Assembly (NCBI GenBank): GCA_028713325.1
Contig: JAQTON010000002.1
Span: forward strand, 62,001 to 126,000
From: Candidatus Altimarinota bacterium
GTDB lineage: Bacteria > Patescibacteriota > Gracilibacteria > BD1-5 > UBA2023
Length of the DNA stretch: 64,000 nucleotides
Direction: 5' to 3'
Part shown: one piece after another, positions 22,295 through 62,231 of the stretch
How the letters are laid out: the number at the start of each line of letters is the position of its first letter
Position numbering within the stretch: the stretch's first letter is position 1
The notes under the pieces: model-generated
What the model saw: the letters and a program-made list of their open reading frames with translations, nothing else
The model's database searches: none
Told to the model about the DNA's origin: nothing
Position numbers and translations under genes: made by a program

Positions 22295-22413
22295 AAAATC
22301 TCTGAAAAACTCGTTCTTCGAGCTTAAATCTCCGCTTCTCACTCTCCGTACAATAGTACGGTTCGCTCTAATGCTCGATTTGTACTCGAATTACTTCGCT
22401 TTTGAGAGATTTT
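22295..22413 (+). repeat. structured 3' element, copy A
   Basis: 119 nt, terminal stem AAAATCTCT / AGAGATTTT, inner hairpin CCGTAC-AATA-GTACGG at 22346-22361 followed by TTCGCT. Begins 1 nt after a stop codon. No T-run follows. Related copies at 38288, 62113 and 43601. Confidence 0.75.
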
Positions 22414-22431
22414 GAATACTATCACTTCTAT

Positions 22432-22460
22432 AAAAATCCCCGTTTCAAACGGGGATTTTT
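22432..22460 (-). terminator. terminator of ssb
   Basis: AAAATCCCCGTTT / AAACGGGGATTTT with a 1-nt centre, immediately after the ssb stop. Confidence 0.85.
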
Positions 22461-22463
22461 AGA

Positions 22464-22913
22464 CTAAAACGGAATATCTTCGATATTGATTTCTTCTTCT
22501 GCTTTGGGAGCAGCTTTCTTTGTTTTAACAGGAGTTACCTCTTCCGGTGTTTCCTGTGAGAAGGAATCACTTGTCTCGTCTCTCTTACCAGAAAGCATAA
22601 TCAGATTATCCGCAACCACTTCTGTTTTATACTTCTTTACTCCCGTTGGATCGTCCCAACTACGAGTTTGGAGTCGTCCTTCGAGATACACTTTCTGTCC
22701 TTTCGTAAGGTATTGCTCCACAATCCCTGCGAGAGAACCCCAGATAACGATATTATGAAATTCCACCTGTTCCTGCTTCATCCCGGAAGTATCTTTCCAT
22801 ACACGATTTGTTGCTATGGAAAAATTTGCAACCTTTTGTCCGTTTGGTGTTTCTTTTACTTCCGGAGTGGCAGTAAGATTTCCGATAAGTTGTACCTTGT
22901 TGAGTGAATTCAT
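22464..22913 (-). CDS. ssb: single-stranded DNA-binding protein
   Basis: 149 aa, no TGA. OB-fold SSB: MNSLNKVQLIGNLTATPEVK, then FSIATNRVWKD, EFHNIVIWG, GQKVYLEGRLQTRSWDD and VVADNLIMLSG in order. The C-terminus is the acidic interaction tip INIEDIPF preceded by an EEE run. Length typical. It is a monocistronic unit with its own promoter and terminator, not in the usual rpsF-ssb-rpsR operon. Confidence 0.97.
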   Translation of the reverse strand: MNSLNKVQLIGNLTATPEVKETPNGQKVANFSIATNRVWKDTSGMKQEQVEFHNIVIWGSLAGIVEQYLTKGQKVYLEGRLQTRSWDDPTGVKKYKTEVVADNLIMLSGKRDETSDSFSQETPEEVTPVKTKKAAPKAEEEINIEDIPF

Positions 22914-22949
22914 AAAAAGAATTGGTAAAAAAGATAAAGATACCAGGTA

Positions 22950-22977
22950 ATGATAGTGGAAAATATAAGAAGTGCAA
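22950..22977 (-). promoter_or_regulatory. promoter of ssb
   Basis: Minus-strand TTGCAC, 16-nt spacer, TATCAT, ~36 nt before the ATG. Confidence 0.5.
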
Positions 22978-22992
22978 ATGTTTTATAAAAAA

Positions 22993-23030
22993 TCTCCTAA
23001 AAAAAGAGATCGATCTCTTTTTTTAGGAGA
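22993..23030 (-). terminator. terminator after the coiled-coil protein gene
   Basis: Perfect 38-bp palindrome TCTCCTAAAAAAAGAGATCG plus complement. T-runs lie inside the stem rather than after it. Confidence 0.6.
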
Positions 23031-23051
23031 CCGATCTCTAAATTTTATTTC

Positions 23052-24119
23052 TTACTGTGTTATAGTGGTAGTTCCAGTACTGGTAGCGGTATCGTCAGAA
23101 AGAATATCATTAAGAAGATTTTCTTCGGAAGAACCTCCAGTGAGCTCATCGATTTTAGTTTGAAGAAGTTCTTGAATTTCTTTCAATTGATCGATCACTC
23201 TTTCCTTCTTCGCTATAGTAAGAGCTTTTTCGACTTTCGTAAGAATACCCTGAAGTCTCTCTATCGGCAGAGTACCGATAACCTTGTCGAGAACAGTACG
23301 GTTTTTTTCAGAAAGAGCTCGTTTCTTTGCCTGTATTTCTTTTTTAAATTCTTGTTTCTGTCCCTTTATTTCTTCCTTAAATTCTTTTTTCTGTTGTTTT
23401 ACCTCTTCTTTAAATTCTTTACGAACTTCTTGATTTTTTGCCATCATAGACATTCTTTCTTCCATTATTTTCTTGAAAAGATCTTGTTTGTCAGTACTAA
23501 TATAGGCAAGAAGAGCGGTCATATGAGTACTTGTAAGCTCTCGCATTTTTATTGCTTTTTCTTCCATAGCAAGAGAGGTATCATCCATAATAACGTCTCG
23601 TTCCAATTGCTGTGCTCGAAGGAGTGCTATAACAGCATCCTGTTCTTCTTTGGTAAGCGGATTTCTAAGGAAACCTCAGAGCTCTCTCACTAACATAGGA
23701 GATTTACCAAGTTCATTTCCCATGGTTCCCGTAATTTTCGGAGCCATTATATTTTCCTGTTTTATTTCCATTTTTTGATCTTTTACTTCTTGTTTTATTT
23801 TCTCTGAGCAGTTAGCCCATTTATAGAGTTTTCCGCTTGGAAAATACCAACCTTCACTTCTTGTTCCTATATTTCTACATGTCGCAGAGTTTATATTCTC
23901 AGTGGCAGTAGTTGCCCCCGTTGATGTAGAGGCATTCTCTGTAGTAGTTGTCACTGCTGTATTAGCAGTTTCGCTCGATACGGAGGTAGCTTCATTAGCT
24001 GTCTCTGTTGTTGTTCCAGTAGTTGTCTCTGTCGTTTCGGCAGAAACAGATGATAATAGACTTGCTCCAGTAACAAGAATTGTAACGGAAGCACTGATAA
24101 TTTTCTTTGTATACATCAT
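23052..24119 (-). CDS. secreted Thr-rich / Lys-Glu coiled-coil protein
   Basis: 355 aa with one UGA (23676). N-terminal signal peptide (KKIISASVTILVTGASLLSS, VSAET cleavage-like site). Then a Thr/Glu/Ala/Ser low-complexity linker (~45 residues); a small domain with Cys pair around ATCRNIGTRSEGWYFPSGKLY and WANCSEKIKQ; helices; and a Lys/Glu coiled coil with repeated KKEFKEE(I/V)K units at about residues 230-270. It ends in a Thr-rich tail (TATSTGTTTITQ). Probably exported or surface-located. No family recognised. Confidence 0.75.
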
Positions 24120-24162
24120 ATTATAAAAGATAATGAATAAAATTGGTAGAAATACCGCGAGC

Positions 24163-24190
24163 AGTTTATGACACTTTTTACAAGAGTCAA
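24163..24190 (-). promoter_or_regulatory. promoter of the coiled-coil protein gene
   Basis: Minus-strand TTGACT, 16-nt spacer, TAAACT, ~44 nt before the ATG. Confidence 0.45.
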
Positions 24191-24224
24191 TAATAAATTC
24201 GTGAAGAGTTTGTGGAGATTTTTT

Positions 24225-25121
24225 TTATGACTCAATATTTTCATCCTCCTTGTCTGTTTTTACGATGATTTTGTAGGTCGAGAGATATATCATCGAGGCA
24301 AGTCCCTCAAACAACAGGAAAGAAAGGAGTACAAAGAGGGGAGTGTATTTTTCGGAGAATATTTCTTCGCCCATCTGAACCAGACCTATAGATACTCCGA
24401 GAACAACAAGAAAAGGAAGAATAAGAGAAATGATTTTCCATACTTTTTTCTTCGTCAGACGGAAACTCTCGTCGATATACATTTTTGCTTTTCCTACCTC
24501 TTCGCTATAAAGCAATACATAATAAGAAAAGACGAGACGAATGGCAAGATACAGGAACCAGATGAAGAGAGCGACAAAAAGCATCAAAGAAATTCCTCCA
24601 ACAACAAAAGTGGAGAGTCCGAAGCTGATCTTTGCAAGAATTCCAAATGGGATAACAAGAATAAGTCCCGTCATTATCGGTGCGAGAAGATAGAGAGCCA
24701 TCCATCCGAGTATTCCTATATATGCACGAAAGTGTTTGAGAGAGAAATAGAGATTTTTCGTGTAAGGAAGTCGTTCCCCGACAAGATAGGATTTGTAGAC
24801 GTTTTGCAGAAGGAAGTTCCCATACGTGTAGGTACAGATGAAAATCGTCACAATACAGAGAAGCAGAAAGAGAGTAACGGCGATGGTACCGATATTATTA
24901 AGCAAAAATTCTTCCGAACTGACCGAGAGTCCGAGTTTGCTATAACTCGTAAAATATTGATAGACGATAATGCCGACGAATGGGAGGGATGCTATGAGTC
25001 CCACTATGTTGGCATAGAGGAAAATGCACACTTTGGAGATATTCCAATGAAAAAAATTCTTATAGAGGAGAATGATATTTTCGAAAATCTGTTTGAGATT
25101 GGCGAGATAGGATCGTATCAT
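24225..25121 (-). CDS. polytopic membrane protein, unknown function
   Basis: 298 aa, no TGA, stop TAA. Five to six hydrophobic helices: around VCIFLYANIVGLIASLPFVG, TIAVTLFLLLCIVTIFICT, GWMALYLLAPIMTGLILVIP, GGISLMLFVALFIWFLYLA, IISLILPFLVVLGVSIGL and LFVLLSFLLFEGL. Two amphipathic linkers carry conserved-looking charged segments (GKAKMYIDESFRLTKKKVW). The pattern (helix pairs separated by an amphipathic DESFxLxKxK segment) is like GPDPase-membrane / DUF975-type proteins of Firmicutes and CPR; this is inference. Confidence 0.7.
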   Translation of the reverse strand: MIRSYLANLKQIFENIILLYKNFFHWNISKVCIFLYANIVGLIASLPFVGIIVYQYFTSYSKLGLSVSSEEFLLNNIGTIAVTLFLLLCIVTIFICTYTYGNFLLQNVYKSYLVGERLPYTKNLYFSLKHFRAYIGILGWMALYLLAPIMTGLILVIPFGILAKISFGLSTFVVGGISLMLFVALFIWFLYLAIRLVFSYYVLLYSEEVGKAKMYIDESFRLTKKKVWKIISLILPFLVVLGVSIGLVQMGEEIFSEKYTPLFVLLSFLLFEGLASMIYLSTYKIIVKTDKEDENIES

Positions 25122-25210
25122 AATAATGAAAATAGAAGATAAAAAGGAGTATTTTATATTTTTTAAAGAAATATCATATATTCAGTATATCTAAAATTGG
25201 ATTCTTTCAA

Positions 25211-25261
25211 ATGAAAATATCATTTTCAGTGATTTACCATCACAATTTCAACAACCATTAA
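25211..25261 (+). CDS. possible leader peptide, 16 aa
   Basis: MKISFSVIYHHNFNNH then TAA, rich in His and Asn, ending 22 nt before a terminator hairpin (25284). The layout is like an attenuator leader, but the next gene is a transglycosylase with its own promoter beyond the terminator. Tentative. Confidence 0.25.
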   Translation: MKISFSVIYHHNFNNH

Positions 25262-25283
25262 TAAATGAATAAAAATTCCGAAG

Positions 25284-25314
25284 ATTCTCTCCGTACAAGA
25301 GGGAGGATTTTTTT
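25284..25314 (+). terminator. terminator upstream of the transglycosylase gene
   Basis: ATTCTCTCC pairs (with G-T pairs) to GGGAGGAT across an 8-nt loop, followed by T7. It ends a short upstream unit or acts as an attenuator. Confidence 0.6.
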
Positions 25315-25323
25315 GGTTTTCAT

Positions 25324-25351
25324 TTGGTCTTCTTCTCTTTTTTATTATACT
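25324..25351 (+). promoter_or_regulatory. promoter of the transglycosylase gene
   Basis: TTGGTC, 16-nt spacer, TATACT, 56 nt before the ATG. Confidence 0.5.
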
Positions 25352-25406
25352 CAACCTAAATCTATTTCAGATATACTTGGAATATTCCCTTTTCATAAAC
25401 TCCCCT

Positions 25407-26288
25407 ATGAACAGAAGTCGTCTCATCCTTATTTTATCCACTTTTCTGCTTTTTATAAGCATAGTGGTATTCTTTCTGGTGGGTGAAAGGATGCAACACT
25501 ATGGGGATCTCTCAAAAATTATCGATTATTCAAAGGTGAATTTCGCCGGAGAACAGGTTTCTTTTAAGGGAAAATACTACTATAATCTGGAGAAATTCGA
25601 ACGAGAACTCTCGGTAACTCGGTTCAATATGTATCAATTTGTCCTCTATCACAAACGAGAACCCCTCTATATTCCGTATATAGAAAAAAAGTTGAAAAGT
25701 GCGGGAATCCCCGATGATTTTAAGTACCTTGCTATCGCTGAGAGCGGTCTTCGGAATGAATCCCTGAGTAGTGCAGGAGCCGGAGGAATTTGGCAATTTG
25801 TTCCGGGTACCGCCAAACAATATGGGCTACAAGTGACGGATTTGGTGGATGAACGATATAATTTCGAACTGGCAACCGATGCCGCGATTGCTTATTTTCA
25901 GAAACTCTATGAAGATTTTCATGACTGGACACTCGTGGCCGCCGCCTATAATCGGGGAGAGAACGGACTCCGTCGTGCTCTCGACGACCAAAAGGTTTCT
26001 TCCTATTACGATCTCTATCTCAACGAGGAAACGACCCGATATCTTTTCCGAATTATCGCCATTAAGTATCTGATGGAAAACAGATACGAGATCTTTGATG
26101 CAGATGAACTATGAGATGTTTTCATGAAACCGAAAACTCGTATTGTTGAGATTTTGGAAATCCAAGATATTAAAGCATGGTGTCTCTCGAAAAAATACGA
26201 CTATGCCATGGTGAGACAACTGAATCAGTGGATTCTCGGAAACAGTCTCCCAAAAGGGAATTGGAAGATACAGGTATTGGATTTGTAG
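25407..26288 (+). CDS. membrane-anchored lytic transglycosylase (MltD/Slt type)
   Basis: 293 aa with one UGA (26112-26114); stop TAG. N-terminal anchor (LILILSTFLLFISIVVFFLV), then a goose-lysozyme-like SLT domain. Catalytic Glu in YLAIAESGLRNESLSSAGAG, then GGIWQFVPGTAKQYGL, DERYNFELATDAAIAYFQKL and AAAYNRGENGL, the four standard motifs of family 1 transglycosylases. After the UGA a ~58-residue helical tail follows. It cleaves peptidoglycan glycan strands, for wall remodelling or to pass pili and secretion machinery. Confidence 0.93.
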
Positions 26289-26360
26289 TTTTTGTTTGTT
26301 TCTTAAGAGCTTTTGTATTATAATACGAAAAAGTCATAAATTTCTTATACGCATCTTCCT

Positions 26361-28022
26361 ATGTTCAAAAAATTCATTCTTTCTTTTCTCGTCTTTTTTC
26401 CATCTTTCGTAGCGGCTGCCGAGCTTCCTTTTACGGATGTCTCGATAGGGGCTTCCTATTATGCTCCGCTCAAGCATATGTACGATGCGGGAGTTATCGG
26501 TGATACTTCCGATTGATTGTTTCGTCCGGACGGACTCCTTCCTCGAGATGAATTTGTGGGAATCGCTGTCGGAGTAAGCTGCCGAAAGTGTCTCTCTCCA
26601 AGCATAGAAGACATCATTCGTTATAGCCAGAACCCATTCATTGATATCCTCAAGAAAAACCAGTATTTCTATTGCATCTCATACGCAAAGGAAAAAGAGA
26701 TTGTTCGCGGATATACTCTCGATAGTAGCGGAAAAACACAGTGTCAAAACGGAAAAACTTTTTCGGAAGTTCCTTTTTGTCCGTCGAATAACATCACGCG
26801 GATAGAGGCTGCGGCAGTGCTTTTGCGTCAGGCGGGACTTTGGAACGAATCGCTCAATGACAGTTCGTATGAAAAGAAAATGACTTTATCGGATTTGGAC
26901 GCTTATTGGTATGGGTATGCACAAAAAGCGGTAGAGTCAGGACTTATAACTGTTGATGGAGGGGGAAAAATTTTTCCAGACGAGTATATCACCCGAAAAG
27001 AGTTCGTCATAATGGCTTCGAAGATTTTTACCATTAATATGTGCAGTGTAAAAAATAATAAAATTCCTTCCGATTTCGGTACTATCATAAAAATTTTCGA
27101 TAAAGAGAAGAAAGATTGTTCCAATACTCAAAACGTTACCGTTTTCCCGAACGACAGGGAGGCTATTTATGATTTTGGATGATACGCAACCGATGGTCTC
27201 ACACCTCCTTTGCGATATGATTGGATTTTTACCAATAGTACTACCTGAGAGCAGAAAACCGCAACCGGCAGCTGTCTCGATGATTTTAACTTGGAATCGA
27301 CGGGCTCATGGACGGTGGGACTCACCGTCACCGATGCAAATGGTCGCAGTTCCACCGCATACCAACAGGTTTCTATCGGTGCCGATACATGAATTTCTCT
27401 TCAGATTTGAATTGCCAATACTCCTGTTGACGGCATTCGCGATCCACTCAGAGCGTCTGCCACCACTCTTTATGGAACCGTGGGCGTTCCGATGCCGTTT
27501 TTTTCAACTGCAACGGGATGAGATGGGAATTATAGTTACCATTGGGATTTTTCTGACGGAGGAATTGCTTCCTTAAAAGACCCATTGCACGTATTTATGA
27601 GAGAGGGAATATATCCGGTGTCTCTTACCGTGCGGGATACATCGGGAAATATCGCTTATGCCCGACTCACCGTCATTCTTTCTCCAAATCTCGATAGAGA
27701 TAATGATGGGATACGTGACTATGCTCCATCGGGAAATGTACTGGATATATGTCCGGATGTTTTCGGTCCCATTTCCAATAGAGGGTGTCCGATAGTGAGT
27801 GAATACGGTACGGATGGAATAATTGTAGACAATCTCTGTCTTTCAAACAAGATACGCTCTTCAGGAATGATAGAATGAACTGCACAGTGTACGAGTTGTC
27901 CGTGCGAGTATTCGTCTGAATTTATCGCTCAAGTACGAAGCTGTGACATTATTTTTCCTTCCATTACCTCTCCGGATAAGAAAACACTCTATTCTCGCGG
28001 AAGTATTTTTCCGGTGCCGTAA
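26361..28022 (+). CDS. SLH- and PKD-domain surface protein
   Basis: 553 aa with seven UGA=Gly codons; stop TAA. Signal peptide MFKKFILSFLVFFPSFVAAA. SLH-like modules: LPFTDVSIGASYYAPLKHMY with GLFRPDGLLPRDEFV, and DLDAYWYGYAQKAVESGLIT with GGKIFPDEYITRKEFV. Two PKD/Ig-like beta domains follow: GLTPPLRYDWIFTNSTT..SWTVGLTVTDANGRSS, and YSYHWDFSDGG..YPVSLTVRDTSGN. Then a thrombospondin-3-like calcium segment LDRDNDGIRD and a Cys-rich end (CTSCPCEY). SLH modules bind cell-wall polymers, so this is probably wall-associated. Under the standard code it would appear as several fragments. Confidence 0.85.
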
Positions 28023-28052
28023 CAGTTTTTTCATATACACTTTTAATATATC

Positions 28053-28081
28053 TTGACATATTTTTTTTCTTCATATAATCT
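28053..28081 (+). promoter_or_regulatory. strong promoter of the small unit before secD
   Basis: TTGACA, exactly 17 nt, TAATCT. Confidence 0.65.
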
Positions 28082-28087
28082 GAACAG

Positions 28088-28120
28088 ATGAAATCCTCCT
28101 TTGCACAGCCTGTGCTTTAG
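28088..28120 (+). CDS. possible 10-aa upstream peptide
   Basis: MKSSFAQPVL then TAG, overlapping a hairpin (TCCTTTGCACAG / CTGTGCTTTAGGA). It starts with the same codons as the following 57-aa frame (MKSS). Tentative. Confidence 0.25.
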   Translation: MKSSFAQPVL

Positions 28121-28158
28121 GATTGTGATTCATTCAATTTTTGAGAAAGAGACTACAT

Positions 28159-28332
28159 ATGAAATCTTCTTCCGTTACTCCACCCGCTTCCCTTGCAGCT
28201 GCTGCCTCAACTAATCCGATGCAACAGGCAAGAAAAGATCAAGAGAAGGTGCAAGAGACTGCACAACAGTCGCAACCACCAAAAACTTCCCCGGTCGGAA
28301 ACCTCGGCAATAACGTGGATACTCACGCCTGA
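28159..28332 (+). CDS. 57-aa low-complexity protein, ends at a UGA
   Basis: Ser/Ala/Pro/Gln-rich frame (MKSSSVTPPASLAAAASTNP ... NLGNNVDTHA) with a GAGAAAGAGA purine-rich leader. It sits in a tight transcription unit: consensus promoter, then a terminator only 17 nt after the frame. The frame's first stop is TGA. If TGA is Gly, as in all other genes, translation runs through the terminator and has no TAA/TAG until 28573, inside secD. So it is a non-stop message, a UGA used as stop, or an RNA with fortuitous coding look. Confidence 0.4.
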   Translation: MKSSSVTPPASLAAAASTNPMQQARKDQEKVQETAQQSQPPKTSPVGNLGNNVDTHA

Positions 28333-28349
28333 TCTTCTTTTTCAATCCG

Positions 28350-28382
28350 GTCCATGGAATATTTTCCATGGGCTTTCTTTTT
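28350..28382 (+). terminator. terminator of the small unit before secD
   Basis: Perfect stem CCATGGAA-TATT-TTCCATGG extended by two pairs, then TTTCTTTTT. Confidence 0.8.
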
Positions 28383-28456
28383 GTACAGAAAACTTGCAAA
28401 CAAAAGGCTTTTCCATATAATCCCGCGTAGTTTATTTATCTCATTATTTTTCATCT

Positions 28457-30238: not shown

Positions 30239-30273
30239 AATAGAGTCTGTAGAGTCGAAAGTCTCTCAAGTCA

Positions 30274-30313
30274 AAAAAATCCCCTCGATTCAGAAATGAA
30301 CAAGGGGATTTTT
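30274..30313. terminator. bidirectional terminator between secD and the ABC-F gene
   Basis: AAAAATCCCCT / AGGGGATTTTT stem with T-runs on both strands, between two convergent stops. Confidence 0.75.
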
Positions 30314-30318
30314 ATTTC

Positions 30319-35408: not shown

Positions 35409-35479
35409 AATATGAAAAAGTTAAATAAAAATAAATTAAGAATTTAGAAATGGAATTTAATATATTTTGAGAAAGCCCG

Positions 35480-36960: not shown

Positions 36961-38289
36961 ATGCAAAGCAGTTCAAAAAAACTCAACGCCTACACAGTGG
37001 AACTCACCATTAAGGAAAACACCAAAGAGTTCGAAAAAGCTCGAGCGGAAACCATCGACGCTATCCGAAATAATGCGAACATCAAAGGGTTCCGCAAGGG
37101 GGCTCATATCCCTGAGGAAGTGATCGTGAAAGAATACGGGGAGGATATGATTCGAGAACGAACCGTCAATACGCTTCTCGACAAGATATACCACAAGGCT
37201 CTTCAGAAAGAGGGAATCGTTCCCGTTTCGGCAGGAGCGGTGAGGTCTGTGATATCAGAGTCTCCACTTGAGGTCATTCTCGATGTGGAGGTACTTCCGG
37301 AAGCGATTATCGACGAGAAGAAGATGAAGAAGATCAAAATCAAAAAAACAGAAGTGAAGACCGAAGAAGACGAGGTGACTTCGACTATTAAAGAAATCGA
37401 GAAACGATTCACTCACTACCACGATGCGGGAGGGCACAGTGAAGATGGATTCGATGCTTCGAGTGTCGTTATCGAAAAATGAGACCGTGTAACGATCGAT
37501 ACGCAAGGGTTCGACAAGCAGGGAGGAAAAGAGATTCCAGAAACGAAAGTCGCAGCATTTCCACTCGTCATCGGTTCGGGATCATTTATCCCAGGGTTCG
37601 AAGAGAAGATGCTCGGAAAGAAGGCAGGTGAAGTCGTGGAATTCGACATTACCTTCCCGGCGGATTACCACTCAGCGGAGTTCAAGAATCGTAAGGTATT
37701 CTTTATGACCACTATTTTCCGGATCGAGAAAGCTCATGGTCCGGAATGGACTCCTGAATTCATCGAGAAACTTCGAGGAGTGAAGACCGATTTTGAAGGA
37801 TTCAAGGATGTTCTTCGAAAGGAAATCCAGGGAGAGAAAGAATATCAGGCTCGAGCGAAAGACGAGCATAATCTTCTCACGGAGCTTATGTTGATTACCG
37901 AACTCGATATAGGACCATCGCTCATTCAGAGTGAGATAGACCGAGTATTCTCCGAACAGAAACACAATATCGAGTCCCAAGGATATACCATGAAAGATTA
38001 TCTTTCTCATGCGAAAAAAGACGAGGATTCCTACAAGGAAGAAGTGGTAAAACCTGAGGCGGTTCGTCGAGCGAAAGCCGAGCTTATCCTCAAACGCGTT
38101 CGTGAAATTCTCAATATCGAAGCGACGGAACAAGAAATAAAGGAAGAGATAGAGAAGATGATTGCTCAGTATTCGAGCGATAAAGTCGTAGAACGACTCC
38201 GAGCGAAACTTGTTCCCGGGGATGATTACTATGAGGATATCAAGAATCGGGTGGCGTACAGAAAAGTAGTTGACTCATTTTTTGCATAA
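36961..38289 (+). CDS. tig: trigger factor
   Basis: 442 aa with one UGA (37480) giving IEK-G-DRVTID, the conserved Gly-Asp of the PPIase domain start. Ribosome-associated chaperone and prolyl isomerase. N-terminal ribosome-binding domain includes NIKGFRKGAHIP in place of the GFRxGxxP signature. The FKBP domain shows FIPGFEEKMLGKKAGE and DITFPADYHS; the helical C-terminal chaperone domain runs from ~residue 270. Length normal. No clpX/clpP neighbours here; clpP is 24 kb away. Structured element B begins inside the stop codon region. Confidence 0.96.
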
Positions 38290-38405
38290 AACTCTGAAAA
38301 ACTCGTTCTTTGAGCTTAAATCTCCGCGTCTTTACTCTCCGTACAGTCGTACGGTTCGCTCAGATGCTCGATTTGCACTCAAATTACTTCGCTTTTGAGA
38401 GTTTT
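38288..38405 (+). repeat. structured 3' element, copy B
   Basis: 118 nt: terminal stem AAAACTCT / AGAGTTTT, inner hairpin CCGTAC-AGTC-GTACGG then TTCGCT. Overlaps the last two bases of the tig stop codon. Confidence 0.75.
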
Positions 38406-38429
38406 ATAACTCATCTTACCATCACTAAT

Positions 38430-42846: not shown

Positions 42847-43053
42847 TTTGTCATTCCGACCGTAGCGGAGGAATCCCTTTAGATCGGTACTTATGAAACT
42901 ATGCTTCCAGAATATGAAAAACCATAACTACTTCGTCTATATTCTTGCAAGTGATTCAGGAACACTTTATATGGGAGTTACTTCTAATCTGGAAAGATTT
43001 GTCTCAAACGTGGTAGTCAAAAGGGATTCCTCGACTTCGTTCGGAATGACAAA
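42847..43053. mobile_element. inverted-repeat element carrying a GIY-YIG remnant
   Basis: About 35-bp terminal repeats (left begins TTTGTCATTCCGACCG, ends GAATCCCTTT; right is the complement with few changes) enclose ~135 nt, nearly all occupied by a truncated GIY-YIG frame that reads out into the right repeat (RDSSTSFGMT). A MITE-like element whose repeat belongs to the family at 6398 and 12777. Confidence 0.7.
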
Positions 43054-43090: not shown

Positions 43091-43600
43091 ATGTCATCAA
43101 AACACCCACATTTTCATATACGAGAGCTTCGTGCGATTATCGGACATATCATCGGTGATGAGGATTTTAGAAAACTTCAGACTCACCGTCATCATATGTT
43201 TTTCAATCGCTATGAGCATCTTCTCAACGCTTCATTTTTCGCGTACCAACTTGCCCGTCTTTTCCGTGCCGATTTGGAAGTATGTGCCTTGGCCGGACTT
43301 CTCCATGACTATCATTTTACGACTCTCAAGTCGTACAGTCACGCGGTAATTGCCGCGAAAAATTCGGAACGTTTTATGGTCAGCGAAGAGGTGGTCGAAA
43401 TTGTACGATCTCATATGTATCCTTTTTGAAGAAGTAAGATAAAGTGTATTCATACGAAAAATTTCTGGGTTGTGAAAATCGCCGATTTCAGTGCCGCTTT
43501 TTTTGAAATTAGTTACTCTATTGTTTTTCTTCAATTTCAACATGATCGTATCAAACTCAAAAGAAGCAAGCTTCTCATGGAAATGGTAGGAGAGAAATAA
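43091..43600 (+). CDS. HD-domain phosphohydrolase-like protein
   Basis: 169 aa with one UGA (43427) at YPF-G-RSKIKC; stop TAA. Pattern H-x-HD: RHHMFFNRYEHLLNASFFAY supplies the first His, CALAGLLHDYHFTTL the HD pair, and VEIVRSHMYPF the later His; the last Asp is less clear (KIADFSAAFFEI). Nucleotide or phosphoester hydrolysis is typical. Short CPR HD proteins of this type are common. Structured element D starts right after the stop. Confidence 0.78.
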
Positions 43601-43748
43601 TGGAATCTCTGTAAAATGCGAATTTTGCACTCAAATCTTCCGTTCCTCTGACCCACAAGGGGAGCTAAATAGCTTCTCCGTACAAGTCGTACGGTTCGCT
43701 ACGGTACTTGATTTTCATACGAACTTCATCATTTTTCACGAAATTCCA
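43601..43748 (+). repeat. structured 3' element, divergent copy D
   Basis: 148 nt. Terminal stem TGGAAT / ATTCCA, inner CCGTAC-AAGTC-GTACGG then TTCGCT, plus an extra CTTCC...AGCT insert. Begins immediately after the HD-gene stop. Confidence 0.6.
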
Positions 43749-52815: not shown

Positions 52816-52829
52816 TCACTCACCAACAT

Positions 52830-53809: not shown

Positions 53810-53838
53810 TTGACTCTGTTTTTTCTTTGTGTTATAAT
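53810..53838 (+). promoter_or_regulatory. promoter of the 293-aa anchored protein gene
   Basis: TTGACT, exactly 17 nt, TATAAT; 37 nt before the ATG. Confidence 0.65.
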
Positions 53839-53874
53839 TTTCTTTACTGGAACTTTTAGCCTTTTTTCAATATT

Positions 53875-54756: not shown

Positions 54757-54792
54757 GCATGCTATTGTTCATCTTCCTATTTTGAAGGAAGA

Positions 54793-55251: not shown

Positions 55252-55286
55252 AGTAAGAAGCAAAATAATAAGGAAGTGAAAATTTT

Positions 55287-55311
55287 CCCCCTCTCCTCAC
55301 AGGAGAGGGGG
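55287..55311 (-). other. perfect GC hairpin between ftsQ and the 152-aa gene
   Basis: CCCCCTCTCCT-3 nt-AGGAGAGGGGG; no T-run follows on either strand, so not a classical terminator. It could pause or shield the 3' end. Confidence 0.6.
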
Positions 55312-55322
55312 ATGATGAGTCT

Positions 55323-56339
55323 CTATTTATAATATTCTCCGTAAATTCTTCTGAGATTGCTCTTGCAGAGTATTTTATTTTTGCAAATAAATATCTTCCC
55401 GGGGACACGCATATCGATGTATTGCATATCTCATGAATTGATAAAATCCTTATTTTTATCATTATATATCTTGAGAGAGAGAATTTGATTATTGATATCA
55501 CTAGCCGTTCTGAGAAGAACAATAAGTCCGCTCTCCAGAGCGATATGCACTTCACGTTCGGATTTAAAATAAGTAAATTTTGCTATATTCACGGCAGGGA
55601 AAGTGGTTTTGAATATGTCACGTGAAGCAAGGATAAAAGACATAAATTCTTCTCCCACCCCTTCTTTGTAATCTATGAAGCTCATCTCTGCAAAGCTTGG
55701 ATCCACCAAATCGAGAAAATGGAGATTCGTGTCATGTATTTTTTGGTACACGAGAATGCCGTTGCTTGTTATAATGTAGGATTTTTCCGAATTTGGGAAA
55801 CGTACAAAAAACTGGGGAGTGTAAGACTCGATAATAATTTTTAATCCGTTCGGAAACAATTTCGAAATTTCCACATGCTTGATATTTTTCTGAAGAGCGG
55901 TGAGTGCTTCAAGAACTTCGTCTGTTTTCACCGAAAATATCGAAGTGCTGTAAATGTCTTCTATCGATTTATAGGCGATATTGATATCGGTAATGGAATC
56001 AAAACGTTCGATGATAACCTTTGATGGAGATACCCGAAAATACGGAGAGAAAAAAAGGATATACAAACTTGAAACGATAAGAAATGTTCCGATGAGAAGA
56101 AAAGAAAGCCGAAAACGATCCTTATTTTGATCCAGAACATTGATAATGGTATTAAAATAATAGAATCGCTTTTTTTCTCTAAAAAAAGTAAAGAGTGAAG
56201 GGTGTCACTCTGGGGATTTTTTCGCACTAAAAAGGTAGCGCTTTTTTTTCTCCAGTGCTGTTTCTTTTCGAAATTTTCGATTTTTCCAGTATCGAGCAAT
56301 TCTCTGAATACTGTTTCTAAGGCGTCTCGTGAAGTCCAT
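55323..56339 (-). CDS. ftsQ: cell division protein FtsQ (POTRA domain)
   Basis: 338 aa with two UGA=Gly codons (SPE-G-HPSLF and FINS-G-DMQYIDMRV); stop TAG. Basic cytoplasmic head (~80 residues), one membrane helix (FRLSFLLIGTFLIVSSLYIL), then a POTRA domain (FRVSPSKVIIERFDSITDIN, YSTSIFSVKTDEVLEALTAL) and the beta domain with FVRFPNSEKSYIITSNGILV. The final DMQYIDMRVPGKIFI is the conserved FtsQ/DivIB C-terminal strand. Essential divisome link. It overlaps rbfA by 23 nt, start on ATG. Confidence 0.88.
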
Positions 56340-56676
56340 ATTTTTTGGAGAGTTCATTAATGATATCTTGTACATTTCTTGTTACCGCCTTATTTTTCAC
56401 TCGCTTGAATCGGATATGCGGAATCTTGTAGGTTTGCACCTGTTTTCCGATATCGTGACGGAGCTTATCAGCCAAGGGTGCCAATTTTTTTGGAAGCATC
56501 GCCTCATTAGTTGCCGCGGATACATATATATCCGCATAGGACCTATCCTTGCTAATCTCTACCTTGACGATGCTGACGATACCGAATTCCTCACCGTACT
56601 CTCGTATATGTTCGAGAATAATGGGGGAGGACATAGTTAAAATGGTTTCTGCAAAACGGTCGGTTTTTGTGGACAT
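56317..56676 (-). CDS. rbfA: ribosome-binding factor A
   Basis: 119 aa, no TGA. KH-like fold protein that matures the 30S subunit (16S 5' end) and helps in cold. Starts MSTKTDRFAETILTMSSPII; IVSIVKVEISKDRSYADIYV, then LRHDIGKQVQTYKIPHIRF are the conserved RbfA core (R-x-I...L...YA-V-V...R...P-L-F). The gene overlaps ftsQ, so both are translated from one message; this pairing is not common. Confidence 0.92.
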   Translation of the reverse strand: MSTKTDRFAETILTMSSPIILEHIREYGEEFGIVSIVKVEISKDRSYADIYVSAATNEAMLPKKLAPLADKLRHDIGKQVQTYKIPHIRFKRVKNKAVTRNVQDIINELSKKYGLHETP

Positions 56677-56833
56677 GAAAATGATACTAGTTGGTAAGTA
56701 TTGAATATACTTTGGAAGTATATGGAAAATATTTGTTTTTCAAAATAAACATATGTTTTTTTAGGTATATTATATCGAATAATTGTAATAATTTTTAAAA
56801 CTATCTTAAATATGGTTTATTTCAAGCTTTCAC

Positions 56834-56862
56834 TTGACAGCACGAATATATTAAAATATACT
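56834..56862 (+). promoter_or_regulatory. promoter of the pilin-lectin fusion gene
   Basis: TTGACA, exactly 17 nt, TATACT; 39 nt before the ATG. Confidence 0.7.
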
Positions 56863-56901
56863 TTCCTCGTTATTTTATATACCTTATTTTCTTCTTCTTA
56901 T

Positions 56902-58656
56902 ATGAAAACAAATAATACAAACAAGATATCTTTAAAAAAGAACATCTATTGATTCACTCTCGTAGAACTTATCGTGGTTATTACGATTCTGGTGATACTA
57001 TGAACGGTGGCTTTCACTTCTCTCACCGGATATTCCGGTTCTGCCCGTGACAGTAGTAGAGTGTCCGATGTTTCCAATATCTCCAAAGGCCTGGATATTA
57101 CCTATATCAAGATGGGGACCTATCCAAATCCCGATAATTCTTTCTCTGTTACCTATTCCGGTGGGGTCCTCTGGACTCAGTGAACCGTCTGAGAAAGGGT
57201 TATTAACACTATCGGTGCATGATGAGGAGTCAAGGTAAGCAAAAACCCAACCGATCCACTCGCTACAACAAAAGAATACACCTATTCCAAACTTGCTTTC
57301 TGAAATGCTTACCAAATCAAGGCTGATTGGGAAGGGGAAAGTATTTCTCTGAATTCTCGTCTCATTCCGCAAACATACGCAGACGCCGGTAACCCCACCC
57401 TTTCCTACATCAAAGGAAACTACAATGGAATAACTACAAAAACTCAAACAGGAGATCTTATTTATCTTCTCGCTTTACCCAGCATCATTACTTCTCAATC
57501 GGGAGTTACCTCATTCGATCAACTTATAAATAAGATTCTTATCCACTGACAGACGAACTCCGGAGGTATTGCCTATACGCCAAAACTTGTTTATTCTTCC
57601 GGTTCCCTTCCATCAACCAATGCTGAAAAGATTCTTTTTGCAAGCGGTATTGCCAATGCTTATTATGAGAATGTTGGTCTTTCCGCTAATCCTGCCATCC
57701 AATCATTCGTCGCAGCAAGGGGAAACACGGAAGCTCTCGCATCACTCGGAGAAAAACTTGTGAGCACAAGTCTTGGAGGAAGTGCGAATATGACACCACC
57801 CCCCCCAACAATATATGCTTGTACGGGAAGTCTCATCATCGTCAATGCGAATATCTCCAATACAACGGAACTTATAGTAAACACCCCCTATCAGACAACC
57901 GTATCAGGAAACGCCTGTTACTATACTTGCAAAACAAATTACAGTGGAATGAATTGTCAGACATACACCGCTCCAGAATCAACCTATGCCATATCCGCTT
58001 GTCCAACAGTAAATGCAGCAAGAAACGACGCTACTCCCACCAAAACTCAGATACTCGCGAGCATTACGGATTATATAGGATGTACTGTTTCTGGTATAAC
58101 GGGAGGAATCATAGCAGGATATACTTACTCTGGATCAATCCTGTTAGCAAACAGGATGGTATTGGTAACAGAAACAACCAATACCGCAGGAGCCTCTACG
58201 ACCCCTTGGTGAGGTACCATGTCAGATATCTGATCGACAACGGATAATGTATGAGCTCTTTCGAGTATGAGCGGGAGTATATATGGGTGGGACGGATTGC
58301 GAAACACCAATGCAATTATATGAGTTCAGTGAGCAGGATCTTACTATGCAGCACAAAAATGCAACGCAAAATGAACGGGGTGGTATCTCCCTGCCAATGA
58401 GGAACTCAACGAACTTTACTGTTACAGCAATCAGACAGCCACGGGAGATTCTTTTTATGGAACGCATGCCAATTGTGTAGCGAAGTGATATATTACTGCT
58501 AATATCTGAACTCTCCCGAATTTTATTGCCAATTATTATCAATCTTCCACTGAGTACAATGGTGACATTGTATGGGTTCAGAGTTTCGATAATGGTTATC
58601 GTGATACGAATGGGAAAGCCAGTCCTTACGCCGTTCGTTGTGTTAAAAGATTTTAA
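56902..58656 (+). CDS. type IV prepilin fused to a DUF1566 (lectin-like) tip domain
   Basis: 584 aa with 16 UGA=Gly codons; stop TAA. Leader MKTNNTNKISLKKNIY-G is followed by FTLVELIVVITILVIL: the prepilin peptidase site Gly(-1) is itself a UGA. The pilin helix and N-terminal domain lead to a long Ser/Thr-rich central part with Cys pairs (CTGSLIIVN; CYYTCKTNYSGMNCQTY, EGF-like). The last ~130 residues contain CNAK-G-TGWYLPANEELNEL, YQSSTEYNGDIVWVQSF and YAVRCVKRF, the Lcl/DUF1566 C-type-lectin-like fold. It probably forms a pilus tip adhesin. No protein of this size would be predicted with standard code. Confidence 0.85.
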
Positions 58657-58738
58657 AAGAAGATAACTCTCTATGGGGATGATATGATATTACGGTATAT
58701 TGATAAGAAATAATTAAACTATATGTCCCCTCATTCCG

Positions 58739-59506
58739 CTAGAGAGTTTTTGATGTTTTTTCTCCACTCACAAAACATCCGCCACCCTCTTGTTTTATGA
58801 TATCTATGCACATTTCATAGACCGAGATATTTTTCATATCCTGTGCGATGGAACGAAGACGATTGATGGCAGTGATGTATTTCATGGAGACAAGTTTTCC
58901 GAGTATTTCACGCCGGAGAATTTTGCTGGATCTTTTGAGAAATTTCTCTACGAGATATTGATCTATTCCGTTGTCCGTGTCGCGTATGAGAAGAGTATCA
59001 AGAAGGGCCAGTTCTGGGCAGGCGATTCGAAGTTTTTGGTCATCTATCTCGAGAGAATCGGTATATCTTTTAAAGAAAGAATAGATGTTTCTGTTGAGAG
59101 TTTTTTTCCCGGATGTGATGGGACGAACGGAAAGGGAGTAGGTTTTGGAAATCTGAAGATTTTTTGTTGTATCCTTCCCGGAAACGATGAGTTTTTTCGG
59201 TGCACTGTAGTCTTTCATAAGGATCTCAAGAGCTTTGTTGCCAGATATGAAATACTCTCCTCATACTTCCCGGGAGAGTATTTTTTTTACAATCCTCCAA
59301 TACCCATCTTCCACGATTCACTCAATATTAATATTTTCACTTTCGGGGACATAATAGAGTCATTGTTTTATGGGAATGAGAATATTACTCCCCTTAAGTC
59401 GATAGAGCACCTTATAGGTAGGAGATCTTTTATTCAGAGACTTCTTTCGAAAGTCGGGATCGACGATATCCGATATATCATCTATATCGATGAATTCTCC
59501 TCTCAT
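58739..59506 (-). CDS. AbiEi-type antitoxin-like protein
   Basis: 255 aa with three UGA=Gly codons; stop TAG. N-terminal winged helix (MRGEFIDIDDISDIV; KRSPTYKVLYRLKGSNILIP, then IKQ-G-LYYV), followed by EV-G-GEYFISGNKALEILMKD and the TYSLSVRPITSGKK strand, then CPELALLDTLLIRDTDNGID. The order W/H-x-x-G-x-(Y/F)-(V/I)-x-(S/G)-x-x-x-AL...ELA(L/I)-D is the AbiEi/type IV toxin-antitoxin antitoxin family. No AbiEii nucleotidyltransferase lies beside it; it appears orphan, with a divergent 266-aa gene upstream. Could be a stand-alone regulator. Confidence 0.68.
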
Positions 59507-59686
59507 TTTTCACAGTTTATTAACAATTTTGTTGAAATCTATCATGATATATTTTGTTTTATAATAGGGATTTTTATGGTAGATATATAATATATTTTCT
59601 ACTATAGATAGTATAGATAGTTTACTCTATAAATCAAGTTTATTTTACCTATTTTAACATATGAAACAAAGAAGGGTTCTTAAATT

Positions 59687-59714
59687 TTGAAATAAAAACA
59701 CTTTGTGATATACT
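59687..59714 (+). promoter_or_regulatory. promoter of the 266-aa gene
   Basis: TTGAAA, 16-nt spacer, TATACT; 39 nt before the ATG. Confidence 0.55.
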
Positions 59715-59753
59715 GGAATTTAGTATTCATATATCCTATATCCATAATGCAGT

Positions 59754-60554
59754 ATGTCTCTAATATCACAATCATCACAGGGGGATCGACAATGGAGTGA
59801 CGATCAGGTACGCTCTTGGGAGTTCGGTGCTAGACTCTTGGTTCGCCGAGGAGTGGATTGATATTTTTCCGGTGGGGAAAGGGCCTATTTTGAGGAAATG
59901 GAAAGAAGCGGTGGCGTTACGCCAAAAAACATAAGAGACATAAGAAATCAGGCGGGCGATACGATTATTTCATTATTGCACCAGGCGGGCGATGCAGATA
60001 TTGCGAGAAAAATCACGAATATGGAGACTATCGGGAATAATCCGTTGGAAGCCTATATCGGGAAACTGAAAGGATTTTTTAGGGGAAAATGTTCTCTGGC
60101 TATACACGAATATACTCAATCCATAAGAAAAACTCAAAATCCAAACGCTCATCCGATGAATATGAAGCCATTGTTGCATTATCTTTGCGAACAGTATGTT
60201 CTCACGGAAAATCGTCATAGTCTGATTGAATTGATCGAAGGATTTCTCTCTCTTGAATGAGCGGATCCGAATATGCTTGACTGTAGAGATACGATTGAAT
60301 TTAAAGAAAATCCCCGTTTTAATGGAAAACATGTATTTGACGTATTTGATACGGAGGAAAAACTCCTTACTAACAGACGTATAGTGTTAATGCTGCTAAA
60401 CGCATGAACAGACTGACAGCTGTCAACCGTCTGGAATGTTATTTATAGAAAAGATGGCTCAGATTGGGAATTAAAGGATTATTCCAATGAGAATACCGTA
60501 AAGTCTCATATGACACAGGCGATAGATGCCTATCAAGAACAATCAAAAATGTAG
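59754..60554 (+). CDS. 266-aa soluble protein, unknown
   Basis: Four UGA=Gly codons (RGVD-G-YFS, SLE-G-ADPN, LNA-G-TDGQ region); stop TAG. N-terminal part is helical with VTPKNIRDIRNQAGDTIISL, a Lys/Arg-rich middle and a C-terminal beta part (ERKFD-like strands: GKHVFDVFDTEEKLLT). No membrane segments. It is divergent from the AbiEi-like gene, but toxin motifs such as GSxxxTxDxD are absent. No family recognised. Confidence 0.65.
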
Positions 60555-60603
60555 TGAAAACGAAGAATTTGCTGGCGAAAAAGAAGCTAAAATTAAAATT
60601 TAC

Positions 60604-60631
60604 TTGAATTTTTCCTAAATACCCCTACAAT
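60604..60631 (+). promoter_or_regulatory. promoter of the second prepilin, inside a hairpin
   Basis: TTGAAT, 16-nt spacer, TACAAT. The -10 box forms the loop of the terminator hairpin at 60617-60643; ATG 36 nt downstream. Confidence 0.5.
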
Positions 60632-60643
60632 ACGGGGGTATTT
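60617..60643 (+). terminator. terminator of the 266-aa gene
   Basis: AATACCCC / GGGGTATT stem followed by TTTCTATTT. Confidence 0.65.
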
Positions 60644-60666
60644 CTATTTGTAATCTTTCTTTCTCT

Positions 60667-61464
60667 ATGAAACAGAATTCTCTGAAACAGAATATTTCCT
60701 CTGTTTCCGGTTTTACCCTTGTGGAACTTTTAGTGGTTATTACGATTCTTGCGATCATCAGTATTACCGCTTACACCAGCTTCTCCGGTTCTACCGATAA
60801 GGCAAAAAATTCAACGAAAATAGGACATATCGCCAGCATCGAAACAGGACTTAATACTTTCTTCGTTGAGAAAAATTATTATCCGATGCCTTCGCAGTAT
60901 GTTGCGGACACTAATGTATGGGGGTATGATAATACCCTGGCTGCGGCCATTTCAAATACTTTTACGGGAGTTATCAATAACAATCAGATAGAAAGTATCT
61001 CTTCTGGTGCCGGTGGAGGGAAGGTTTATATGAGTGGTGCAACTACTTCAACCGGTCAGATTGGTGCCAAGGGAACCATCGATTCCGATGTGCTGTCCAA
61101 ACAGTACCTCTCTCAGGAACTCGTAGATCCGTCTCTTAAAGATACAAAAGTGGGAAATGATAAAACCCTCAAAGATTTTGGAATAGGAGAATATACGTAT
61201 GGAGTATATGCCAAAAATAATAGTGTTTGGACGAGTGCTTCCAAAAAAGGTACCGCTTATAATGTCGCTATCGTTGTTTCCGATGAACAGAAAGGAGTGA
61301 TTACAAAAATATCTGGAAATTTTGATAAGTCCACCTGTATCAACTGTCCGAATACTCTTATCGGAAGCGGAACGGCAAATAATAATCTTAAGGACGGAGA
61401 ATCATATAATGGAGATGTTTTTGATGCAAATACTCGTGTAGCCTATCCCATCAGCGGATTTTAA
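60667..61464 (+). CDS. type IV prepilin (PilA/GspG-like)
   Basis: 265 aa, no TGA (its cleavage-site Gly uses a normal codon), stop TAA. Leader MKQNSLKQNISSVSG then FTLVELLVVITILAIISITAY: prepilin peptidase site with Glu5 and N-methylated Phe1. GspG-like NSTKIGHIASIETGLNTFFV and NYYPMP follow, then a Gly/Ser-rich domain with a Cys pair CINC near the end. A likely major pilin. It shows no UGA while the fusion pilin upstream has 16, consistent with high expression. clpP starts 22 nt later. Confidence 0.9.
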   Translation: MKQNSLKQNISSVSGFTLVELLVVITILAIISITAYTSFSGSTDKAKNSTKIGHIASIETGLNTFFVEKNYYPMPSQYVADTNVWGYDNTLAAAISNTFTGVINNNQIESISSGAGGGKVYMSGATTSTGQIGAKGTIDSDVLSKQYLSQELVDPSLKDTKVGNDKTLKDFGIGEYTYGVYAKNNSVWTSASKKGTAYNVAIVVSDEQKGVITKISGNFDKSTCINCPNTLIGSGTANNNLKDGESYNGDVFDANTRVAYPISGF

Positions 61465-61486
61465 TTAAAATATAACCTCCTTTCCC

Positions 61487-62110
61487 ATGACCCTTAAAAG
61501 TATACAAAAGAAGAAAACTATAGTACGAGCAAGTCTCATTCCTACGGTCATCGATAAAATCGGTGGACAGGAGCGGGCGTACGACATCTATTCCCGACTT
61601 CTGGAAGATCGGGTGGTATTTCTCGGGGATGCCATCGATGCGTCGGTGGCGAATACGGTTATCGCACAGCTTCTCTATCTCGAGAAACAAGATCCGAAAG
61701 CTCCGATAACTATCTATGTGAATTCTCCGGGAGGACACGTGACCGCCGGACTCGCCATCTACGATGTTATGCAATACGTTCAGTGCGATATCATCACCGT
61801 TTGCGTGGGGCTCGCCGCATCTATGGGGTCCATCATCCTCGCGGGAGGAACGAAAGGGAAACGATACAGTCTTCCGCATTCCGAGATCATGATTCATCAA
61901 CCGCTTGGCGGAACGGAAGGACAAGCAACCGATATTCGAATCGCTGCGGAACACATCCTGAAAACGGGTGGGGTGCTCTATGGAATCCTTGCAAAACATT
62001 CGGGTCAGGATGTGAAAAAAGTGGAAAAAGACTGCGATCGAGATAACTATATGACTCCGGAGGAAGCGTTGAAGTATGGGCTTATTGATAAAATCATCAA
62101 TAACAAGTAG
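61487..62110 (+). CDS. clpP: ATP-dependent Clp protease proteolytic subunit
   Basis: 207 aa, no TGA. Serine protease barrel that works with ClpX/ClpC unfoldases. DRVVFLGDAIDASVANTVIA at the N-terminus, catalytic Ser112 in GLAASMGSIILAGGTKGKR, His137 in HSEIMIHQPLGG, and the Asp in the KDCDRDNYMTPEEALKYGLI segment. Length is typical. Structured element C follows 2 nt after the stop. Confidence 0.97.
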   Translation: MTLKSIQKKKTIVRASLIPTVIDKIGGQERAYDIYSRLLEDRVVFLGDAIDASVANTVIAQLLYLEKQDPKAPITIYVNSPGGHVTAGLAIYDVMQYVQCDIITVCVGLAASMGSIILAGGTKGKRYSLPHSEIMIHQPLGGTEGQATDIRIAAEHILKTGGVLYGILAKHSGQDVKKVEKDCDRDNYMTPEEALKYGLIDKIINNK

Positions 62111-62112
62111 AG

Positions 62113-62231
62113 GAAAGTTCTGAAAAACTCGTCCTTTGAACTCAAAACTCCGTTCCTCGTTCTCCGTACATTTGTACGGCTCACTTCGGTACTCATTTTT
62201 CATTCAAATTACTTCGTTTTTGAGAACTTTC
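62113..62231 (+). repeat. structured 3' element, copy C
   Basis: 119 nt: terminal stem GAAAGTTCT / AGAACTTTC, inner hairpin CCGTAC-ATTT-GTACGG then CTCACT. Begins 2 nt after the clpP stop. Confidence 0.75.

Follow-up and report, generated by a model that had tools for sequence, protein, structure and literature searches.

A probably mobile family of palindromic elements, lying after stop codons and in frame within genes, in a Candidatus Altimarinota bacterium and its relatives

Introduction

The closest described counterparts of the elements reported here are the Rickettsia palindromic elements (RPE), stem-loops of 105-146 bp with terminal inverted repeats that lie in frame in 19 genes (Ogata et al. 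2000; PMC2229807). In published accounts, a guanylate kinase carrying an RPE insert is translated and active (PMC2229807), RPE are found in many unrelated genes (PMC10969869), and orthologous sites hold different RPE groups, with PheRS beta among the hosts (PMC3767692). Here we describe a family of palindromes, four of which lie in a window of 64,000 nucleotides from Candidatus Altimarinota bacterium (contig 5, 62001-126000), a member of the Gracilibacteria. We consider it very probable that they represent a mobile palindrome of about 120 bp, of RPE-like kind, which the genome tolerates behind stop codons and, with the frame kept, in the loops of proteins.

The resemblance to RPE extends to length (about 123-127 bp here), the single long stem-loop, the terminal inverted repeats, dispersal between and inside genes, in-frame positions in conserved proteins with a preferred reading frame, the presence of different subtypes at orthologous sites, and PheRS beta as a host in both. 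The present elements differ in belonging to a distant phylum, in using genetic code 25 with TGA in the used frame, and in their tight and oriented spacing after stop codons. Strand-specific wobble and compensatory change were measured here, and the likeness to RPE is one of anatomy as described, not of sequence. The preliminary description of these elements had held that no described family shares their layout, a view superseded by the recognition of RPE as a described kind.

REP elements associated with RAYT transposases are likewise dispersed palindromes at gene ends and are not known to lie in coding frames as a rule. They are shorter, at about 20-40 bp (PMC3733652), and the present genome lacks a Y1 transposase match. 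By description, ERIC and YPAL of enterobacteria are alike in being hairpins of about 120-170 bp, often at gene ends and with some in-frame fusions (PMC2229807, PMC10969869); they differ in their taxa and in the TA target duplication reported for some members of that class, which was not a consistent feature here. QMITE2 of Coxiella, compared in the same way, lies mainly in 3' untranslated regions (PMC10969869). A search of titles and abstracts, with most subscription literature outside its scope, returned no paper on such elements in Gracilibacteria, Patescibacteria or Absconditabacteria.

Anatomy and distribution

The four copies in the window are as follows, the folded strand being the one on which the fold is better conserved.

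22295-22413, folded strand minus: first copy, of end type I; 22295-22303 pairs with 22405-22413 as the closing stem, and 22346-22361 forms the apical hairpin; the gene at 21820-22293 (plus) has its stop codon directly upstream
38287-38406, folded strand minus: second copy, of end type I; 38287-38295 pairs with 38398-38406 as the closing stem, and 38339-38354 forms the apical hairpin; the trigger factor gene at 36961-38289 (plus) has its stop codon within the overlap
43601-43748, folded strand minus: third copy, of end type II; 43601-43606 pairs with 43743-43748 as the closing stem, with more pairs within and a nested module at about 43649-43676; after the stop of the HD-domain gene at 43091-43600 (plus) and before truB
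62113-62231, folded strand minus: fourth copy, of end type I; 62113-62121 pairs with 62223-62231 as the closing stem, and 62164-62179 forms the apical hairpin; the Clp protease gene at 61487-62110 (plus) ends just before it

These copies had been recognized in the preliminary description, and their main features were borne out: three begin 0, 1 and 2 nt after a stop codon and the copy at 38287 overlaps one; the closing stems AAAATCTCT/AGAGATTTT, TAAAACTCT/AGAGTTTTA, GAAAGTTCT/AGAACTTTC and TGGAAT/ATTCCA and the inner CCGTAC/GTACGG hairpin are present; and the T-run of intrinsic terminators is absent after the stems of all four. The four are alike in having a closing stem and the inner hairpin, as described, with the qualification that 43601-43748 is of a different end type (GTAAAATGCG) and carries a nested hairpin module, CCCACAAGGGGAGCTAAATAGCTT. 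Folding against 200 dinucleotide shuffles gave z values of -4.9, -5.5, -5.1 and -4.6 on the gene-sense strand and -6.9, -5.9, -7.1 and -4.5 on the opposite strand (at 22295, 38288, 62113 and 43601, respectively), and in each of these eight tests 0 of 200 shuffles folded as well as the real sequence.

Without nested modules the element is about 123-127 bp long, a palindrome of about 120 bp overall, with a core of 101-105 nt that is similar across 28 copies. The closing stem of 9-10 bp differs in sequence in many of these copies while its pairing is kept, with some mismatches. On the minus strand, the consensus fold consists of 38 pairs arranged as a rod without branches and interrupted by small internal loops. 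At least three end types occur (GAAAAACTCG, GTAAAATGCG and GAAATAACTTC), in addition to nested double-hairpin modules. The modules, of 24-26 nt (CCCACGAGGGGAGCTAAATAGCTT and variants), sit at various positions of the element, at window positions of about 43649-43676 and in individual copies elsewhere (L016, L020, L024, L027, L029 and L032; L-numbers denote individual loci or copies).

The first copy used as a BLAST query against its own genome (G000; 1.05 Mb, 5 contigs, about 95% complete) gave 43 matches at E<=10. A covariance model of the minus strand, built from the 28 copies without nested modules, gave 61 matches there at E<=0.1, the weakest at E 1.4e-6. Of 66 aligned own-genome rows, 5 were removed ahead of the counts (three wrong-strand, one truncated and one full duplicate). 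A family scan of this genome and others, of the kind proposed earlier, gave matches at E<=0.01 in 22 of 59 genomes, the own genome among them, with 60 candidates scored in each. Within the genus, numbers are uneven and patchy, with at least 59, at least 60, 11, 31, 31, 24 and 10 matches in G000-G006, where G001-G006 are relatives of the same genus; beyond it, genomes of the family carry 0 to at least 60 each, and the order few. The relatives' copies analysed below, 90 after removal of one wrong-strand row from 91, come from five genomes and are mainly the better-scoring matches. Rfam 15 gave 0 matches in the window at the gathering score, and for the copies L007 and L123 returned sub-threshold matches only, none of which covers the element. 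In a protein search, most of the nearest relatives were Candidatus Gracilibacteria MAGs. Reading of TGA as glycine (table 25) fits the genome, where TGA makes up 162 of the 18,427 codons in 41 long frames.

Filled and empty orthologous sites

Orthologous sites differ in their content from one species to the next, and this presence and absence at the same sites indicates that the element is mobile. The downstream side of the trigger factor gene shows five states in seven species: G000 and G004 carry type I, G001 and G005 type III and G006 type II, whereas G003 has a plain hairpin and G002 nothing. The element at 22295 and that at 62113 are each absent from 4 of 4 relatives aligned, and the truB-side site at 43601 holds an intact element in 0 of 5. 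The reverse arrangement, empty in the window and filled in G001 by a copy just after the stop codon, is seen at 61464.

61455-61480, plus: empty site; stop codon at 61462-61464 with the next gene directly after; G001 is filled exactly here

The same holds within genes. Inserts are lacking in 4 of 6 relatives for pcrA (the other 2 carry an unrelated repeat), 2 of 2 for uvrA, 2 of 2 for sufS, 3 of 5 for a miaB-type gene (2 filled), 2 of 3 for ftsJ (1 filled) and 1 of 1 for a glycosyltransferase-like frame, while for ksgA 1 of 5 is empty, 2 hold another element subtype, 1 holds unrelated repeats and 1 a short unrelated stretch. These seven host genes gave 24 comparisons; the net length differences listed, 19 in number, are all multiples of three, and 123 bp for sufS and ftsJ. 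Filled and empty orthologous sites thus show mobility, against which the preliminary description had argued.

Two possibilities concerning these sites were set aside. The locus-specific closing stems suggested that they derive from the target, the element landing in an existing hairpin; as a general rule this was rejected, since neither arm is present at most of the empty orthologous sites and the arms form part of the insert length. The exception is the glycosyltransferase-like frame, in which GAAATTTC is already present in the empty homologue, compatible with a target-derived stem. Window position 35450 was dropped as a clean empty site and left uncounted, since G002 holds a decayed copy there and the window may carry a deletion scar.

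Several neighbouring observations concern other sequences at such sites. After the trigger factor gene of G003, L038 is a plain perfect hairpin, GAAAATCTCAAAGAA-GAAA-TTCTTTGAGATTTTC, in which the core is absent. At the site of 62113, the gap between clpP and a tRNA synthetase gene in G002, G004, G005 and G006 (L077-L080) holds other, mutually different sequence with small open reading frames. An unrelated palindromic repeat of CCCTAACCCTCTCC..GGAGAGGG type lies, with the frame kept, in those protein loops that carry the element in the window genome (L165 and L166 in pcrA, L153 in ksgA). Window positions 42847-43053, as well as 6378-6421 and 12834-12877, carry repeats of another family, unrelated to the element, whose ends resemble TTTGTCATTCC..GGAATGACAAA; in relatives, similar repeats are found at a number of the same gene ends (L085, L043).

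Copies inside genes

Long open reading frames with the folded strand coding contain 9 of the 61 own-genome copies and 20 of the 90 from relatives, as recognized through open frames, so that gene-breaking copies would be missed. Hosts include pcrA/uvrD, sufS, uvrA, ksgA, a miaB-type gene, ftsJ, pheT and radA. Of these, sufS begins inside the window.

63478-64000, plus: 5' part of a sufS-type cysteine desulfurase gene; the in-frame copy lies just past the window end, at contig 5 126058-126181

Ten own-genome frames were scanned with Pfam, which assigned L019 to a UvrD/PDDEXK helicase-nuclease, L026 to PcrA/UvrD, L017 to class V aminotransferases, L018 to UvrA, L024 to RsmA/KsgA, L066 to radical SAM with UPF0004, and L068 to FtsJ; L021 shows glycosyltransferase domains in an unusual order, in a putative gene structure, and L031 and L029 had no match. 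NCBIfam placed L017 as SufS-type and L026 as PcrA-type, and returned nothing for L031, L029, L074 and L006. Ten frames of relatives (E<=1e-20) add RlmD (two copies), PheRS beta, DinG-like proteins (two genera members), RadA, a BatA-like protein, a copper P-type ATPase (two copies, in opposite orientations) and an aspartate-tRNA ligase with the folded strand antisense; L046 gave no match at this threshold. Family matches flank the element on both sides in sufS, pcrA, ksgA and pheT. In SufS the profile matches end at residue 192 and resume at 235, with the element at about 193-234; in PheRS beta the element, at 350-391, comes directly after a match that ends at 349. The MurG frame has the element at residues 91-132, with the match starting at 130; lying at the very start, the element may be a 5' extension.

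Phase 2 is used in 25 of 29 in-gene coding copies (7 of 9 in the own genome, 18 of 20 in relatives), the remaining four being in phase 0. The phase-2 frame has 2 to 5 TGA in every one of these 25 copies and is free of TAA and TAG, and therefore depends on TGA being a sense codon. The idea that type I has only one open frame proved wrong, as 8 of the 29 copies have one, 18 have two and 3 have three. Counted by frame across 151 copies, those free of TAA and TAG number 84, 99 and 60 on the gene-sense strand and 68, 42 and 96 on the folded strand; since a second frame is open in many in-gene copies and the gene-sense strand is open about as often as the folded one, the bias in frame and orientation is not just stop avoidance.

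Probable maintenance of pairing

The family pairing proposed from the four window copies covaries strongly, above all 500 shuffles in both copy sets. In a sequence-only alignment (A2; 28 copies, 38 pairs), 97.0% of cells are paired against a shuffled mean of 86.3, two-sided change occurs in 25 of 38 pairs (shuffled 15.0) and 133 cells (shuffled 36.7), and the covariation score is 0.422 against 0.205; 0 of 500 shuffles match any of the four measures, although such shuffles leave relatedness among copies in place. Sliding the partners by 1-3 columns brings the paired cells down to 26-53%. The 91 relatives' copies, in an alignment fitted to the model, are 95.2% paired, with two-sided change in 31 of 38 pairs and 645 cells (shuffled 193.8) and again 0 of 500 shuffles. 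The closing stems, which had been said to differ and yet remain paired, do so, and the 25 rod pairs show that compensatory change also reaches beyond them.

A closer view comes from orthologous sites, at which 33 of 34 pairs of copies were used (L152/L103 was left out). In the 11 with at least 78% element identity, 336 base pairs are unchanged, 33 show compensatory change, 30 differ on one side and 9 fall in none of these classes; without two pairs found by hand to be out of register (L104/L022 and L110/L069), the figures are 286, 20, 24 and 4, where hand arithmetic puts the chance expectation at that rate at about 1 compensatory pair, some orthologous pairs having a copy in common and independent refilling being possible for some. 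Clear cases are L123/L004, with GAAATCTCT/AGAGATTTC versus GAAATCTTT/AAAGATTTC, and L151/L140, with GAGGTCTCT/AGAAACCTC versus GAGACATCT/AGAAGTCTC. At some sites, such as L119/L024, the inner subtype has changed and the arms are still similar. These compensatory changes suggest that pairing is kept up after insertion, and they may stem from selection, acting either on a transcript or on DNA that passes through a single-stranded intermediate, or from template switching that corrects the palindrome.

Two explanations for them were considered. It is possible, and we put it forward tentatively, that the fold is under one-strand selection after landing, even in essential coding sequence, in which case a copy within a gene would serve both as a 41-residue peptide insert and as a structured RNA that is maintained, and those at 3' ends would be functional structures, of antisense RNA or single-stranded DNA, and not debris. 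Alternatively, the covariation would arise without selection, from template switching during replication that corrects imperfect palindromes, a process compatible with a mobile element. Long inverted repeats are prone to such correction, and compensatory changes are common even in the closing stems; against this, the small internal loops have not been corrected into pairs in either the 28 or the 91 copies, and only one of the strands favours G·U. We regard template switching as a rather unlikely source of the pattern.

The strand that folds

The wobble pairs show that the better-conserved fold is that of the strand opposite to the mRNA of the upstream gene. In the sequence-only alignment (28 copies, 32 pairs), the gene-sense strand has 42 A·C cells against 11 G·U, beside 830 Watson-Crick cells and 13 of other kinds. 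Because A·C read on one strand corresponds to G·T on its complement, the wobbles that are tolerated belong to the strand opposite the gene-sense one. The larger alignments were fitted to the minus-strand model and so lean to the minus strand, as the 28-copy sequence-only alignment does not; in them the folded strand has 130 G·U against 44 A·C in 91 relatives' matches, none of which was used in the model, and 125 against 42 in 65 distinct own-genome matches, or 255 against 86 when pooled, counts that still include most of the rows removed later. Copy by copy in the cleaned sets, G·U is in excess in 60 of the 90 from relatives and A·C in 9, with 21 ties, and in 50 of the 61 from the own genome and 3, with 8 ties. 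Sixteen copies on a hand-made list of in-gene copies, from an earlier stage and different from the later 29, give 29 G·U against 7 A·C. The strand signal is weakest in the outermost stem pairs (6 G·U and 11 A·C at the first pair in relatives), and the flanks show little strand skew (A 0.29, T 0.31, C 0.20, G 0.20).

This bears directly on the proposal of the preliminary description that the element is a 3'-UTR RNA, a hairpin of the upstream mRNA placed after the stop codon to protect, process or end the transcript in cis. A sense stop codon does abut 39 of 61 own-genome copies, the gene-sense strand also beats its shuffles in folding, and compensatory changes occur at orthologous sites. The wobbles, however, fall on the opposite strand even among the 39 stop-adjacent copies alone (83 G·U against 27 A·C), and the RNAalifold consensus energy of the 28 copies is -23.2 kcal/mol on the gene-sense strand versus -40.3 on the other. 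Moreover, copies also lie inside genes, where 29 of 34 have the folded strand coding, and most of the aligned relatives have nothing, or some other filling, at the four sites of the window. A fold conserved on the strand that is not the mRNA means that the element is not simply an mRNA 3'-UTR RNA, and we consider that explanation very improbable.

Placement relative to stop codons

With genes called by a purpose-made codon-usage caller, the gene-sense stop codon of those 39 own-genome copies lies at -5 to +2 from the model start with the folded strand antisense to the gene, where a rough chance level is 4.3% (random non-coding sites in random orientation, with window gene spacing typed by hand). 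When all 151 copies, 61 from the own genome and 90 from five relatives, are classified more broadly, 86 are stop-adjacent, 29 lie in genes with the folded strand coding, 5 in genes with it antisense, and 31 are unassigned; the own-genome share is 41, 9, 2 and 9. The elements had been thought fixed to gene 3' ends, and this stands insofar as their position there is non-random, and fails for the 34 of 151 copies in six genomes that lie inside genes.

This orientation, fixed with respect to the upstream gene, and the conservation of the fold on the antisense strand would suit a regulatory antisense RNA transcribed from the folded strand at the 3' ends of genes, with the in-gene copies as by-products. 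We give this little credence, as the 45 nt beyond the element hold no conserved promoter-like motif in the 151 copies, in which a weak purine-A-A preference just outside the right arm was noted, and as the fold is on the coding strand in in-gene copies.

Mobility and the nature of the element

The enzymes that might mobilise the element were surveyed in the seven genomes of the genus. Y1 transposase matches number 14 in G003, 1 in G001 and 0 in G000, G002, G004, G005 and G006; tyrosine recombinase matches 1, 1, 0, 2, 1, 2 and 4 in G000-G006; and reverse transcriptase matches 3 in G000, 4 in G003, 1 in G005 and 0 in the other four. The RVT_1 matches of G000 lie at contig 3 30746-31423 and contig 1 170287-170898 and 421554-421991, and no connection between them and the elements was apparent. 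The own-genome BLAST and covariance-model matches included no conspicuous longer copy that looked autonomous.

A single-strand recombination site of REP/RAYT transposase or integron attC type on the folded strand, which the position after stop codons and the structural constraint on one strand might recall, is a very improbable explanation, given 0 Y1 transposase matches in the carrier genome, a single tyrosine recombinase there with counts across the genus unrelated to copy number, and copies that are mostly dispersed, with both flanks usually conserved at orthologous sites.

The reading we favour is thus a mobile palindrome of RPE-like kind. The element falls within a palindrome length of 100-150 bp, forms one long stem-loop with terminal inverted repeats, is dispersed in many copies both between and inside genes, and is inserted in conserved genes with the frame unbroken and with empty homologues in existence. 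One strand, the minus strand at the four window copies, forms a long rod consisting of a sequence-free 9-bp closing stem, short stems with small internal loops and an apical hairpin, and we infer that the element spreads by a process acting on, or passing through, this strand. Copies would persist where they do little harm, either right after a stop codon with the folded strand antisense to the gene, or inside genes with the folded strand coding, mostly in one TGA-containing frame, and sites are refilled by other subtypes and unrelated repeats, as is seen among the relatives.

Several observations weigh against a mobile RPE-like palindrome. Plain insertion and decay predict neither the compensatory changes at orthologous sites nor the tight spacing of -5 to +2 from the stop codon and its orientation, and they leave the orientation bias in genes unexplained, the gene-sense strand being open about as often. 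Of the 151 copies, 31 are unassigned to either placement, and five in-gene copies have the folded strand antisense, two of which (L014, L031) are doubtful. The survey of the Y1 transposase, tyrosine recombinase and reverse transcriptase families, whose counts do not track copy number, yielded no mobilising enzyme, and no target-site duplication is consistent at empty sites, with possible short ones at 22295 and in the glycosyltransferase frame. Lastly, in-gene copies would add about 41 residues with TGA read as glycine, a translation that we infer from open frames and frame-preserving lengths.

Apart from these elements, the window contains a 300-nt direct repeat at 4284-4583 and 5530-5829, its units 95% identical and 1246 nt apart.

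Implications

So far it is chiefly in Rickettsiales that palindromic repeats are known to add peptides to conserved proteins. Another case, from bacteria of a distant phylum with tiny genomes and a reassigned stop codon, suggests that the habit recurs. It brings dozens of filled and empty gene pairs and makes it testable what moves the elements and whether selection keeps the fold after insertion. Predicted proteins of Gracilibacteria may carry repeat-derived inserts of this kind, which is relevant to gene calling, alignment and structure prediction.

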